Virus record (IMG/VR): IMGVR_UViG_3300027608_000007
Coordinates: 1-29,256 of that record
Source of the DNA: a virus
Length of the DNA: 29,256 nucleotides
Reading direction: 5' to 3' (one strand)
Shown: piece by piece, positions 1,200 to 29,256 of the stretch
Position numbering within the stretch: the first letter of the stretch is position 1
Layout: the number at the start of each line of letters is the position of its first letter
Translations under genes and position numbers: made by a program
The notes under the pieces: model-generated
What the model was told of the DNA's origin: nothing
What the model saw: only the letters and a program-made list of their open reading frames with translations
Database searches by the model: none

Positions 1200-1365
1200 T
1201 ATACTCCATAAAATTCAAGTCGTTCAAGCTTACATACACCACAAGACAGGTAAGCAAGTGAGGATAGTATTCAATCGACCGGATAGAATGCAACAACATT
1301 TAGCCTTACTTGATCAAGCGTATATGATAGCTATGAATGAGTTTAAAAACACGAATGCGAAATAA
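1189..1365 (+). CDS. small hypothetical protein after terminase
   Basis: This is a 58-residue ORF (starts MHSDILHKIQ, ends EFKNTNAK) whose ATG lies inside the last codons of the terminase gene, an 11-base overlap in another frame. It fills almost the whole gap between terL and the promoter-like motif at 1344, and the -35-like half of that motif lies in its last codons. No domain is recognised. The overlap and the clean fit in the gap support it as a real gene; the function is unknown. Confidence 0.6.
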   Translation: MHSDILHKIQVVQAYIHHKTGKQVRIVFNRPDRMQQHLALLDQAYMIAMNEFKNTNAK

Positions 1366-1378
1366 ATTAATATAGGTA
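1344..1378 (+). promoter_or_regulatory. putative phage late promoter, copy 1
   Basis: TAAAAAC (1344-1350), 17 bases, then TAATATAGGTA (1368-1378). It is one of five copies of TNWAAAC-N17-TAATATAGGTA in the genome. Unlike the other four, the ATG of the next gene (1389) lies 11 bases beyond the motif, so its transcript would have a leader of about a dozen bases. Promoter function is inferred. Confidence 0.7.
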
Positions 1379-7957: not shown

Positions 7958-8388
7958 ACAGCCTTCAAGCAATAACCAATCACATCATTGCATTTTACAC
8001 AGCTCATAAGCAAGTGTTCAAAGTAGGTAGTGATTTTAAAGAGCAACTTTATAACTTTGCTACTCAAGATGAGAAGTATCCGCTCGTTTATATTGTGCCT
8101 AGTGGAGTTATTCCAACTGAGAACACAACAGAGTTCAACTTTGATATATATTGTTACGATATAATTCAAAAAGATAGAGCGAATATCATAACCATTTTAA
8201 GCGACACTCAGCAGATACTCAGCGATCTAAACGTGTACTTTACGGATAGTAGTGACTATTCGTTTGATGTGGTAGGCGTTCCTACATTCACACCTATAAA
8301 TAATGAATTGCTAGATTACGCTGCCGGTTACCAAATGAGTATAACACTAACAGTAAACGATTGGACTGATTGTGCCGTACCAATCTAA
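7954..8388 (+). CDS. putative tail terminator/completion protein
   Basis: This is a 144-residue soluble protein whose ATG overlaps the stop of the tape measure gene. The pattern of an N-terminal helix (residues 3-20), a central strand region with YPLVYIVPSG and FNFDIYCYD, and a C-terminal strand with YQMSITLTVND resembles small head-tail joining or tail terminator proteins. These usually carry strands that form a hexameric ring. Assignment rests on size, fold pattern and place; confidence is moderate. Confidence 0.45.
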   Translation: MNSLQAITNHIIAFYTAHKQVFKVGSDFKEQLYNFATQDEKYPLVYIVPSGVIPTENTTEFNFDIYCYDIIQKDRANIITILSDTQQILSDLNVYFTDSSDYSFDVVGVPTFTPINNELLDYAAGYQMSITLTVNDWTDCAVPI

Positions 8389-8418
8389 ACAAATCACTTT
8401 ACTAAACTAATATAGGTA
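8384..8418 (+). promoter_or_regulatory. putative phage late promoter, copy 2
   Basis: TCTAAAC (8384-8390), 17 bases, then TAATATAGGTA (8408-8418). The final A is the first base of the ATG of the next gene (8418), so a start a few bases beyond the -10-like element would give a leaderless or nearly leaderless mRNA. The -35-like half overlaps the last codons of the preceding gene. Promoter function is inferred. Confidence 0.72.
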
Positions 8419-11159: not shown

Positions 11160-11194
11160 TTTTTACAAATATATAAATAATTATAATATAGGTA
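11160..11194 (+). promoter_or_regulatory. putative phage late promoter, copy 3
   Basis: TTTTTAC (11160-11166), 17 bases, then TAATATAGGTA (11184-11194), whose last A starts the ATG at 11194. This lies in the only space between two divergent genes, so the protease/capsid operon needs a promoter here. The TATAAT at 11182-11187 is a good -10-like hexamer placed 6 bases before the ATG. Promoter function is inferred from position and from the five-fold recurrence. Confidence 0.75.
11166..11173 (-). promoter_or_regulatory. host-type -7 element for the minus-strand pair
   Basis: Read on the minus strand the bases are TATATTTG, a match to the Bacteroidota housekeeping -7 element TAnnTTTG, 16 bases before the ATG at 11149. 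No good TTG -33 box is seen at the usual 19-20 base distance (a TTG occurs at 24). It lies inside the spacer of the plus-strand late promoter 11160-11194, so the two promoters overlap face to face. Confidence 0.5.
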
Positions 11195-13743: not shown

Positions 13744-13778
13744 TATAAACATTTGAAAGTAAAGATATAATATAGGTA
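13744..13778 (+). promoter_or_regulatory. putative phage late promoter, copy 4
   Basis: TATAAAC (13744-13750), 17 bases, then TAATATAGGTA (13768-13778), the last A being the first base of the next ATG. It begins three bases past the T-run of the preceding terminator. TATAAT occupies 13766-13771. Promoter function is inferred; the location right after a terminator is strong support. Confidence 0.78.
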
Positions 13779-18646: not shown

Positions 18647-18679
18647 TTGTTAATTTGTTAAAAATAATTGTTAAAATGT

Positions 18680-18710
18680 TTGGTCAGTAAAATAATACGC
18701 TTTAGATTTG
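18680..18710 (+). promoter_or_regulatory. early promoter, Bacteroidota housekeeping type
   Basis: TTG (18680-18682), a 20-base spacer, then TAGATTTG (18703-18710), which fits the TTG/TAnnTTTG consensus of Bacteroidota sigma-A promoters. The 23 bases from 18707 to 18729 are identical to 24664-24686, where a second such promoter lies. The leader ends in AACTAACCAA just before the ATG at 18748. Confidence 0.75.
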
Positions 18711-18747
18711 TATATAATTATTTACTAACTATTTAAAACTAACCAAA

Positions 18748-20200: not shown

Positions 20201-20262
20201 AAAAACTAATTGAATACATTTACTTACGCTTAATTACTTATACATATGGAAACCTTGATTAA
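20197..20262 (+). CDS. very short ORF (21 aa) linking to the replication gene
   Basis: The frame MKKLIEYIYLRLITYTYGNLD starts in the preceding stop (ATGA) and ends 17 bases inside the next gene. It might be a leader peptide that couples translation to the DnaA-C-like gene. With 21 codons, chance is a real alternative. Confidence 0.25.
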   Translation: MKKLIEYIYLRLITYTYGNLD

Positions 20263-20626
20263 ACGAATACACGAAATAATTGAAATAGAAAATTTGCGAG
20301 AACGAACAAAGAAGCCAACTAAAGTACATAGGCGATGGTTCATATTTGCTTACCTGAGAAAAAATAATTTTATTCTACGTGAAATTGCTGAACTTTTTGG
20401 AATGAATCACGCTACTATTATTCACGGAATTACACAGGCTGCATTGTTTGAAAGAGTAAAAGACGAAATGTACCTAATAGATACGATTGATTTATTTGAG
20501 GAATTTAACAACACTACGATTAAAATAAAAGAGCGTAATTTAATAGATGACATAATGGAAGGAAAAAACTACCACGATTTGGCTAAAATTAAAAAGCGTT
20601 TACAAAACAATGTTTATAAAAATTAA
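20246..20626 (+). CDS. DnaA C-terminal-domain-like DNA-binding protein
   Basis: 126 residues. The segment FAYLRKNNFILREIAELFGM + NHATIIHGI (residues 34-62) follows the DnaA domain IV signature, where a helix-turn-helix and the 'D/N-H-A/S-T-I-I-H-G/A' motif read the DnaA box. No AAA+ domain is present, so the protein is a stand-alone origin-binding module. It may compete with host DnaA or mark the phage origin. The C-terminal half (about 65-126) is a charged helix. It is next to the initiator and helicase genes. Confidence 0.72.
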   Translation: METLIKRIHEIIEIENLRERTKKPTKVHRRWFIFAYLRKNNFILREIAELFGMNHATIIHGITQAALFERVKDEMYLIDTIDLFEEFNNTTIKIKERNLIDDIMEGKNYHDLAKIKKRLQNNVYKN

Positions 20627-24639: not shown

Positions 24640-24667
24640 TTTAGAGTATAAATAATGCTTATCTTTG
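24640..24667 (+). promoter_or_regulatory. second host-type promoter (before gene 24704)
   Basis: TATCTTTG (24660-24667) fits TAnnTTTG; a weak TTT at 24640-24642 lies 17 bases upstream as a possible -33 box. The 23 bases 24664-24686 are identical to the early promoter region 18707-18729. The leader carries ACTAACCAAT before the ATG at 24704. Confidence 0.65.
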
Positions 24668-24703
24668 TATATAATTATTTACTAACCAATTAAAAACAAA
24701 AAA

Positions 24704-27469: not shown

Positions 27470-27477
27470 TACATTTG
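27470..27477 (+). promoter_or_regulatory. host-type -7 element before the sigma-factor block
   Basis: TACATTTG fits TAnnTTTG and ends four bases before the ATG at 27482, so the transcript would begin at or very near the start codon. A convincing -33 TTG at 19-20 bases is not seen. The block driven would contain the membrane protein, the 71-residue protein and the sigma factor. Confidence 0.45.
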
Positions 27478-27481
27478 ACGT

Positions 27482-27730
27482 ATGATATTACTCGCATTAG
27501 TTCCTTTAGCTTGGTGGTTTGTTAATTTTGAGCCACTCCAAGCAACTTTTGATTACTTTTTTAAGTATAGACCTACTAGCACAATAGCCATACATATACA
27601 TTCTGCATTGGGCTGTATAAAATGTGTGGCTTTTTGGTTGACATTACTTTTTACCTTTGATTTTATTTTGGCTTGTCAAGCCTCACTTATTGCTTATATA
27701 CTAGATGAATGTTTGAACAGGCTGAGATAG
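27482..27730 (+). CDS. small membrane protein (82 aa)
   Basis: 82 residues with an N-terminal hydrophobic segment (MILLALVPLAWWFVNFEP) and two further apolar stretches (ALGCIKCVAFWLTLLFTFDF, ILACQASLIAYILDE). Two Cys (GCIKC) lie before the second segment. Similar small membrane proteins with 'C-x-K-C-V-A-F-W' occur in Bacteroidota phages as far as I recall. Overlaps the next gene by 22 bases. Function unknown. Confidence 0.6.
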   Translation: MILLALVPLAWWFVNFEPLQATFDYFFKYRPTSTIAIHIHSALGCIKCVAFWLTLLFTFDFILACQASLIAYILDECLNRLR

Positions 27731-27924
27731 ATTTAATCGCAGAGATAGAAGGATTGTCTGATACTATTAGATACTCTAAGCATTCCTGCGTTAAACTATT
27801 TAGAATACGAACAAAGTATGATGGTATACAGCCTAGAGAATGTTTCTGTGCGTCAGTAAGACGAAGGATATGGTATAAAGATTTTATGATTTGGTATGAA
27901 AAAGCTCTTAGACAATTACATTAG
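27709..27924 (+). CDS. hypothetical protein preceding sigma factor (71 aa)
   Basis: 71 residues, helical, with C-x18-C (SKHSCVKLFRIRT, RECFCASVRRRIWYKDF) and aromatic-rich C-terminus. It overlaps its upstream neighbour by 22 bases and the sigma gene by 29. The tight overlap with sigma makes a regulatory role (for example an anti-sigma or an adaptor) worth testing, but there is no sequence evidence for it. Confidence 0.55.
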   Translation: MFEQAEIDLIAEIEGLSDTIRYSKHSCVKLFRIRTKYDGIQPRECFCASVRRRIWYKDFMIWYEKALRQLH

Positions 27925-28438
27925 TAGGGCTTATCCTGAGGTAAGAGCTTACACGGCTTATTTTCTATCTAAGATGGGGTTATATCTAGACGCTGATACA
28001 GTCATCAACAACTCATACCTGCACGTTCTTACCATTAACGATAATACAAGTGACGAGGACAAGGTAAAGGCGTACTTGTTAAACACAATCAAGTACCAAA
28101 TCTTATGGAGTACATCCAAGAGCCATAAAGACGATAGAATAACATCCATTATAGACAACTCACCGGATAGAATAGATGGCGATGAGCTAAACGATAAGAT
28201 AAAAGAAGACAGGAACTATTCTTTTCAAAAAGGACTACTTGAAATCTACCGGTTAAGCCTAAAAGATAACGTACAAAGAATAGTTTTCGAGGCTTACATC
28301 GACAAGGGGTATATCACCTCAAGATCATTGGCTACTTATTTCGGAATAACTCACACCTCAGCGTACTATCTCATCAAAGACTTAAAACAAAATTTAAACG
28401 AATTACAATATAGGTATGAAAGCGAGTCAATTTATTAG
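27896..28438 (+). CDS. ECF-like sigma factor (probable late-transcription factor)
   Basis: 180 residues in a two-domain sigma-70 family layout. The region-2 part has NNSYLHVLTIND (39-50) and DKVKAYLLNTIKYQILW (55-71), matching the 'A-x-x-Y-L-x-x-I-x-x-N' helix that melts and reads the -10 element. A linker (72-110) is followed by a region-4 HTH, VQRIVFEAYIDKGYITSRSLA + TYFGITHTSAYYLIKDL (126-163). It is encoded just before the terminase and structural genes, and promoter copy 5 lies in its 3' end. The -35-like AAAC of those motifs agrees with the AAC of many ECF promoters. Sigma identity is from pattern, not a search. Confidence 0.7.
   Translation: MKKLLDNYISRAYPEVRAYTAYFLSKMGLYLDADTVINNSYLHVLTINDNTSDEDKVKAYLLNTIKYQILWSTSKSHKDDRITSIIDNSPDRIDGDELNDKIKEDRNYSFQKGLLEIYRLSLKDNVQRIVFEAYIDKGYITSRSLATYFGITHTSAYYLIKDLKQNLNELQYRYESESIY
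28382..28416 (+). promoter_or_regulatory. putative phage late promoter, copy 5
   Basis: TTAAAAC (28382-28388), 17 bases, then CAATATAGGTA (28406-28416), the last A being the first base of the ATG of the 58-residue gene. It lies wholly inside the end of the sigma-factor gene. One base (C for T) differs from the other four -10-like elements. It would drive the terminase genes. Confidence 0.68.
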
Positions 28439-28764: not shown

Positions 28765-29179
28765 AGTAAAGTTAATAGAGACACCTGAGAAGTTAATGCA
28801 AATCTTTGAAGAGTACAAAGCTTACACTCTAGCTAACCCTAGAACAAAGTACGTACTATCTCAAAAGACAGCAGAAATGATAGCAGAACCTCTAAGAGTG
28901 CCTTTAACAAATGAGGGCTTTGAGATATTTTGTTTTAATAACTACTCAGACGTACATAACTATTTCGATAATACCGAGGGTAGATATTCCGAATACAAGA
29001 CAGTCTGTTCGCACATTAAGAAGGAAATCAGAAACGACCAAATCACCGGTGGTATGGTAGGACAATATAACCCTTCGATAACTCAAAGATTGAACGCACT
29101 CAAAGAACAAACAGACGTAACAAGCGACAACGAAAAGATTAACGCTATCACTGTGACAATCGTGAAGCCTACCGAGTAA
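28757..29179 (+). CDS. terS: terminase small subunit
   Basis: 140 residues. A helical N-terminal half (EKLMQIFEEYKAYT) and VPLTNEGFEIFCFNNYSDVHN + YFDN form the oligomerisation and DNA-recognition part. The end GMVGQYNPSITQRLNALKEQTDVTSDNEK + INAITV is the well-known small-terminase C-terminal pattern ('N-P-S-I-x-x-R-L-x-x-L-K-E-Q'). It recognises the packaging site, often within or near its own gene. The stop is followed immediately by terL. Confidence 0.85.
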   Translation: MPRVKLIETPEKLMQIFEEYKAYTLANPRTKYVLSQKTAEMIAEPLRVPLTNEGFEIFCFNNYSDVHNYFDNTEGRYSEYKTVCSHIKKEIRNDQITGGMVGQYNPSITQRLNALKEQTDVTSDNEKINAITVTIVKPTE

Positions 29180-29256
29180 ATGAATATTAAAAGCACTGTT
29201 ATCTTCGAAAAGAACTTTGAGGCCATAGCAGGTGACAAGCGATTTATAATAAACGA
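29130..29256. repeat. 127-bp terminal direct repeat (second copy)
   Basis: Identical to 1-127. This second copy contains the last 50 bases of terS and the first 77 bases of terL. Confidence 0.95.
29180..29256 (+). CDS. terL: terminase large subunit, 5' fragment created by the window cut
   Basis: The first 77 bases (25 codons and two bases) of terL, the same as 51-127. The gene is truncated by the window end and complete at 51-1199. Confidence 0.9.
   Translation, partial: MNIKSTVIFEKNFEAIAGDKRFIIN

Follow-up and report, generated by a model that had tools for sequence, protein, structure and literature searches.

Phage-encoded late sigma factors are already known. In Salmonella phage 7-11, SaPh711_gp47 is the late sigma and reads promoters of the form GTAAtg-(16)-aCTA, the early promoters being read by the host sigma, and in E. 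coli phage phiEco32 the middle/late sigma phi32_gp36 recognises single-element promoters, tAATGTAtA (PMC8948821). The 7-11 promoters had earlier been predicted from the genome sequence (PMC4331800). With phiEco32-like late sigmas proven (PMC8948821) and crAss-like phages carrying annotated ECF-type sigma genes, the original prediction that phages with late sigmas of the ECF type are rarely described has to be tempered. What we describe here is a divergent variant, belonging to a sequence family named by no library and found in small phages with Bacteroidota-type promoters. It is very probable, in our judgement, that a 180-aa protein of these phages is a highly diverged, phage-encoded ECF-like sigma factor which reads the phage's own late promoters.

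Compared with the 7-11 system, the locus shows the same association of a phage sigma, which here would act with host core RNA polymerase, with bipartite late promoters and with early promoters of the host sigma, and the sigma and its promoters differ together between clades as they do between 7-11 gp47 and phiEco32. The 7-11 system is biochemically proven whereas ours is deduced, its consensus and spacer are different, and the phages described here have genomes of ~29 kb, Bacteroidota-type early promoters, a promoter embedded in the sigma gene and start codons that abut the -10 element. In phiEco32, gp36 likewise switches the host core to late promoters, and tAATGTAtA resembles TAATATAGG, but those promoters consist of a single element and gp36 has no region 4 homology, whereas here a clear -35 is accompanied by a sigma4-like domain. 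By sequence consensus, the three features that mark the phiEco32/7-11 type (a phage sigma, its own promoters restricted to late genes, and early promoters of the host sigma) are all found here. Cellular ECF sigmas (SigL 6dv9; RpoE 1or7 and 6jbq; the sigma-like chain of 9n9q) share with the protein a sigma2 and a sigma4 domain in ~180 aa, an AAC-type -35 and a 17-bp spacer; they differ from it in that the phage protein scores below every curated cut-off, is associated with an AT-rich -10, has no identified anti-sigma gene and is encoded by a phage. The ECF-type sigmas annotated in Crassvirales (crAss-like) phages (NC_055894, NC_055889) match RpoE directly at 27-33%, whereas tblastn against the INPHARED phage collection found no relative of the present family.

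The 180-aa protein, its family and its predicted fold

The window, that is the whole stretch of 29,256 nt that was analysed, comes from a lake-type virus of bacteria; it carries identical 127-nt ends (bases 1-127 and 29130-29256) and is a complete genome of ~29.1 kb, circular or terminally redundant. The sigma ORF starts with ATG and is followed, in order of transcription, by two small ORFs (28416 and 28564), the small terminase gene (28757; match to phrog_606, 1.7e-11) and the large terminase gene (51-1199), whose nearest annotated relatives include Parabacteroides, Bacteroides and Flavobacterium phages at 32-33% identity. The expected position ahead of the terminase block is thus borne out, given the circular or terminally redundant genome and the 318 nt that separate the end of the sigma ORF from the small terminase gene. 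The coordinates of the features discussed below are collected in Table 1.

Table 1. Positions of predicted regulatory features and of the genes of the sigma cassette in the window
Feature	Coordinates	Strand	Evidence
Predicted late promoter P1, AAAC-N17-TAATATAGG, before the 1389 gene, just past terL and a small ORF	1347..1376	+	Motif, conservation
Predicted late promoter P2, AAAC-N17-TAATATAGG, start codon 8418	8387..8416	+	Motif, conservation
Predicted late promoter P3, TTAC-N17-TAATATAGG, start codon 11194, XkdF-like protease gene, then structural genes	11163..11192	+	Motif, conservation
Host-type -7 element TATATTTG, divergent minus-strand promoter overlapping the P3 -35	11166..11173	-	CAAAnnTA in 27/27 genomes
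Predicted late promoter P4, AAAC-N17-TAATATAGG, start codon 13778, then portal gene 14132	13747..13776	+	Motif, conservation
Host-type early promoter TTTG-N20-TAGATTTG, head of the early genes	18679..18710	+	Many relatives have one of this kind at 18-19 kb
Second host-type -7 element TATCTTTG, early region, candidate promoter	24660..24667	+	Sequence match
Host-type -7 element TACATTTG, candidate promoter of the sigma cassette 27482-27709-27896	27470..27477	+	In G014 and G048, full TTG/TAnnTTTG promoter at the equivalent position
Putative membrane protein of the sigma cassette, 82 aa, CIKC present	27482..27730	+	27/27 genomes, no family
71-aa protein of the sigma cassette, overlaps the sigma start	27709..27924	+	27/27 genomes, no family
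Predicted divergent ECF-like sigma factor, 180 aa; sigma2-like residues 1-84, linker ~77-93, sigma4-like 95-179, HTH 142-177	27896..28438	+	AF2, Foldseek, VIA, weak NCBIfam ECF matches, conserved in 27/27 genomes
Predicted late promoter P0, sigma gene 3' end; -35 AAAC 28385-28388, N17, -10 CAATATAGG 28406-28414; would serve 28416, 28564, terS 28757 and terL 51	28385..28414	+	Motif count, synonymous constraint

Relatives of the protein are encoded by 233 IMG/VR stretches. Our comparison set consisted of 27 near-complete genomes in six clades (A, A2, B, C, D and E), all of which encode the sigma (27/27, 41-99% identical); the more distant groups have ~64% (A2), ~43% (B), ~51% (C), ~45% (D) and ~55% (E) identity to the window protein. 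Within the family, conservation peaks in the N-terminal half, at the stretches ADxVINN and KSYLLNTIK. Outside the structural block, the window genes present in all or nearly all of the 27 genomes are those for the sigma, the two small proteins at 27482 and 27709, the ERF recombinase and the exonuclease, and the sigma is the sole recognisable candidate for a transcription regulator common to all 27. A 126-aa protein (20246-20626), which we take to resemble the DNA-binding domain IV of DnaA (LFGMNHATIIHGI), is present in most clades, not in all.

Sequence searches of Pfam, PHROGs and the PDB, made with the single 180-aa protein as well as with alignments, yielded no homologue of use; no Pfam sigma domain was matched, the sub-threshold hit being to an HTH only (Mga HTH, 0.014, residues 114-171). 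The GTDB genome set queried with the window protein gave no relative. An hhalign comparison of the sigma family with 11 ECF proteins was insignificant (the short sigma gene of a Prescottella plasmid was omitted from the ECF alignment, and the E. coli RpoE query sequence was a 100% match to the E. coli record). NCBIfam ECF models align weakly and colinearly (TIGR02989 over residues 11-168, TIGR02937 over residues 5-167), with TIGR02985 matching 12 of 30 family members (best 6e-4), at scores far below the curated cut-offs (13.3 vs 42.9 bits for TIGR02937, 15 vs 126.4 bits for TIGR02985). Since the Pfam, PHROG, PDB-sequence and hhalign searches gave nothing usable, the argument for remote homology is built on fold comparison together with the weak NCBIfam matches.

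Two AlphaFold models, from 17 and 30 sequences (mean pLDDT 74 and 81), predict helices at residues 2-27, 33-45, 54-73, (75-84), 95-121, 125-136, 142-149 and 153-177, arranged as a helical N-terminal block, a low-confidence linker (~77-93) and a C-terminal block ending in the HTH; at a pTM of 0.41-0.45 the placement of the two domains relative to each other is uncertain. The layout is that of ECF sigmas, which have sigma2 and sigma4 alone in ~160-200 aa and lack sigma1.1 and sigma3: the protein shows two helix blocks, sigma2-like and sigma4-like, in 180 aa. Against the PDB, Foldseek gave 9n9q_C as best match (E 4.3e-4), then SigL 6dv9_F (E 2.8e-3), and nearly all of the top 50 were sigma factors, mostly ECF/group 4. 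VIA aligned residues 1-81 with sigma2 domains (5uxx, 6jcy and 4nqw, Z 6.6-7.5), this half matching structures of SigH, RpoE and SigK, and residues 102-179 with sigma4 domains (3mzy, Z 8.7, rmsd 2.3 A over 75 residues; 2h27, Z 7.5); for the second model the alignment spans much of the full length (1-180). Because Z values of 7-9 are in a range common for helical models, and modest for helical domains, we give most weight to the correct order in which the two domains match and to the scarcity of matches other than sigma factors. A fold search of BFVD returned numerous phage ECF sigma proteins, the GAP52 sigma (K4F9S8) with a Foldseek E of 0.14 only. The region-2-like and region-4-like helices of the original prediction are accordingly recovered in the AF2 helices, each half matching sigma factors, and structure prediction, proposed as a check, places sigma2 at residues 1-81 and sigma4 at 95-179 in both models. 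The case that these models make for a sigma fold is strong, though not sealed. We call the protein ECF-like and claim no membership of a named ECF group, because its scores fall short of the curated cut-offs and the usual ECF -10 core is missing from its putative sites.

The late motif and its change between clades

Five copies of the motif WWAC-N17-YAATATAGG are present in the window (P0 to P4, Table 1), always on the plus strand, and dinucleotide-preserving shuffles gave at most 1 copy. All five copies would serve the packaging/structural block (gene 11194, the XkdF-like protease, matches PF14550), and no copy was found in the early region from 17.5 to 28.3 kb. The claim that every copy follows the sigma gene in transcription order, one of them within its 3' end, agrees with this distribution. 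As to the proposed left half, AAAC with a 17-bp spacer, the spacing is exact in all five copies, and the tetramer requires a correction at P3, which reads TTAC.

Across the 27 genomes we found ~3-5 copies per genome, located at the same gene starts and with exact 17-bp spacing, and a relaxed pattern gave 113 sites on the sense strand vs 11 on the other. [AG]AAC lies exactly 17 bp before 70 of 146 cores, compared with 9 or fewer at any other tested spacing, and among 108 sites the tetramer at 17 bp is AAAC in 60, GAAC in 13, TAAC in 13 and TTAC in 6, so that the AAC core and 16-17 bp spacer of an ECF-type -35 are found here. The CGT-type -10 core of ECF promoters was not found at these sites, most of which, in all clades, carry YAATATAGK or TAATATATA. 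Outside the sigma gene the -10 reads TAATATAGG in clades A and A2 (with GT at the end of two clade-A P2 sites), TAATATAGT in clade C, TAATATATA in clade E and CAATATAGG in clade D, where the -35 is AATT at P1 and P4 in most genomes; in clade B, P4 carries TAATATAGT in 6/6 genomes and the other sites are looser, varying at the last -10 positions. The change is concerted at P1, P3 and P4 and tracks the sigma clades, in a comparison made by inspection and among genomes which share ancestry within a clade and hence are not independent. Since separate sites change together within a clade, the pattern points to a shared trans-acting reader that changed, and it could also follow the host lineage. The early promoters keep the form TTG-N17-21-TAnnTTTG in all clades while the late motif changes, and in Flavobacterium the primary sigma has TAnnTTTG as its -7 box (PMC9723704).

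In an unbiased scan of IMG/VR with the pattern AAAC-N17-TAATATAGGTATG, the records were subsequently searched for the sigma. Among the matches listed, 26 of 49 longer records encode it, one as a contig-end fragment, and among the listed records of at least 18 kb it is missing only in G020, G001 and G042. G020 most simply lacks it because its contig begins at TerL. G001 and G042 were set aside as unrelated to the group, having one copy each and no sigma, and the match in G042 is a TTGACA/TATAAT-like promoter. In another record, G019, P2 is present twice as a duplication (8269 and 11218 from TerL), and in each copy a similar gene start is preceded by an intact late promoter.

Constraint within the sigma gene and start codons at the motif

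The copy embedded in the sigma gene allowed a synonymous-site test on 96 distinct sigma sequences of clades A and A2. The codons of the -35 are nearly fixed (AAA 96/96, CAA 95/96), as are those of the -10 (CAA 96/96, TAT 96/96, AGG 91/96, TAT 96/96), and several spacer codons and the Glu codon past the motif vary freely. Mean synonymous entropy is 1.06 bits at conserved residues elsewhere vs 0.0-0.3 in the boxes. If the C in CAATATAGG were a T, the reading frame would run into a TAA stop; this would account for the C being confined, in clade A, to this one copy. The sigma of clade B has no C-terminal tail, and there the embedded copy is absent. A promoter buried in the last codons of the sigma gene would be a clean example of DNA-level constraint within a coding sequence.

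At 82 of the 108 sites the start codon lies one nt past the -10 9-mer; the search for start codons allowed at most 12 nt, and the inspected syntenic sites fall within 0-12 nt. Given any usual distance from the -10 to the transcription start, late mRNAs would be expected to have ultrashort leaders or none. We considered whether transcription might start downstream of the annotated ATG and set this aside: in the 13778 gene the first codon is ATG or GTG in 27/27 genomes and most of the variation in codons 2-11 falls at third positions (extra states 10, 7 and 20 at the three positions). Because coding from codon 2 and an ATG or GTG are both kept in the 27 genomes, translation does appear to start at the annotated 13778 start codon. 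The chances are about even that the sigma switch doubles as a translation switch, with late promoters fused to start codons and mRNAs that are leaderless or have leaders of ~10 nt or less and early mRNAs with A-rich leaders of the ordinary kind. In the host group such mRNAs would be a small minority: only 5.5% are leaderless in Flavobacterium psychrophilum (PMC9723704). Leaderless late mRNAs, if true, would link transcriptional and translational control.

Proposed late transcription and its alternatives

We hypothesise that host RNA polymerase with its primary sigma would first transcribe the early genes from TTTG/TAnnTTTG promoters, the last cassette being 27482-27709-27896. The phage sigma could then bind the host core RNA polymerase, its sigma4 part reading the AAC-type -35 and its sigma2 part the YAATATAGG -10 at 17-bp spacing, and transcription would begin at five late promoters feeding the terminase, tail, head-protease and portal blocks, with P0, in the last codons of the sigma gene, feeding the terminase genes. 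We infer core binding, promoter recognition, timing, transcription start sites and host alike. That a phage ECF-like sigma is the reader of the late motif, as first predicted, is supported by the fold, the bipartite motif restricted to late genes, its concerted change by clade, the host-type early promoters and the presence of the protein in 27/27 genomes. Arguing against it are the AT-rich -10 without a CGT-type core, the AATT of clade D at two -35 sites and the variation of clade B at the last -10 positions.

The motif could potentially be read by the host polymerase with a host sigma, either the primary one or an ECF, the phage protein having another role such as inhibiting or redirecting that polymerase. 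TAATAT does resemble a generic -10, and differences between hosts might in principle account for the clade changes; against this, the late motif changes while the early TTTG/TAnnTTTG promoters are constant in all clades, and among the listed motif records of at least 18 kb that belong to this phage group all but one fragment have the sigma. Because canonical early promoters are kept in all clades, reading by the host primary sigma looks constant, and we regard host reading of the late motif as unlikely. Late regulators such as RinA and ArpU have a sigma4-like HTH without a sigma2 domain, and a protein of this kind, or a Mga-like or other HTH activator, would bind the motif and recruit the host holoenzyme, and would not replace the host sigma. 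The RinA model TIGR01636 matches 8 of 30 family members (best 0.002), and the Mga HTH match (0.014) over residues 114-171 points the same way. Despite the weak TIGR01636 matches, the protein departs from the RinA/ArpU type in having a sigma2-like N-terminal half, which matches sigma2 structures and holds the most conserved stretches of the family, and the -35/-10 architecture with a fixed 17 bp has no space for an activator site plus host boxes, making an activator rather less likely still.

There is next to no chance, in our view, that the motif marks the start of translation, or is a fortuitous AT-rich repeat, and is no promoter at all. The start codon that follows the 9-mer by one nt at 82 of 108 sites would suit a start signal, but the AAAC 17 bp upstream is constrained even within a coding sequence whose spacer drifts, and the bipartite motif is kept where the start codon has moved as far as 12 nt from it; chance would produce 0.01 copies. 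We rejected the motif as a start-codon signal on account of the constrained -35 and the movable start codons.

With the phage sigma as reader, a concrete transcription programme can be assigned to these small phages, an abundant but uncharacterised group whose promoters are of the Bacteroidota type. A sigma family invisible to Pfam and PHROGs is then identified, and its six clades, in which sigma and promoter vary naturally, could serve for mapping specificity residues. The 82-aa and 71-aa neighbours of the sigma, conserved in all clades, are candidates for an anti-sigma or co-regulator. Since CAAAnnTA, which on the minus strand reads TAnnTTTG, sits right at the P3 -35, expression of the late operon may exclude that of the minus-strand genes 10604 and 9892, and vice versa. 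In the early region, at 18679-18740 and 24640-24700, a host-type -7 box is followed by an almost identical leader, TATATAATTATTTACTAAC.
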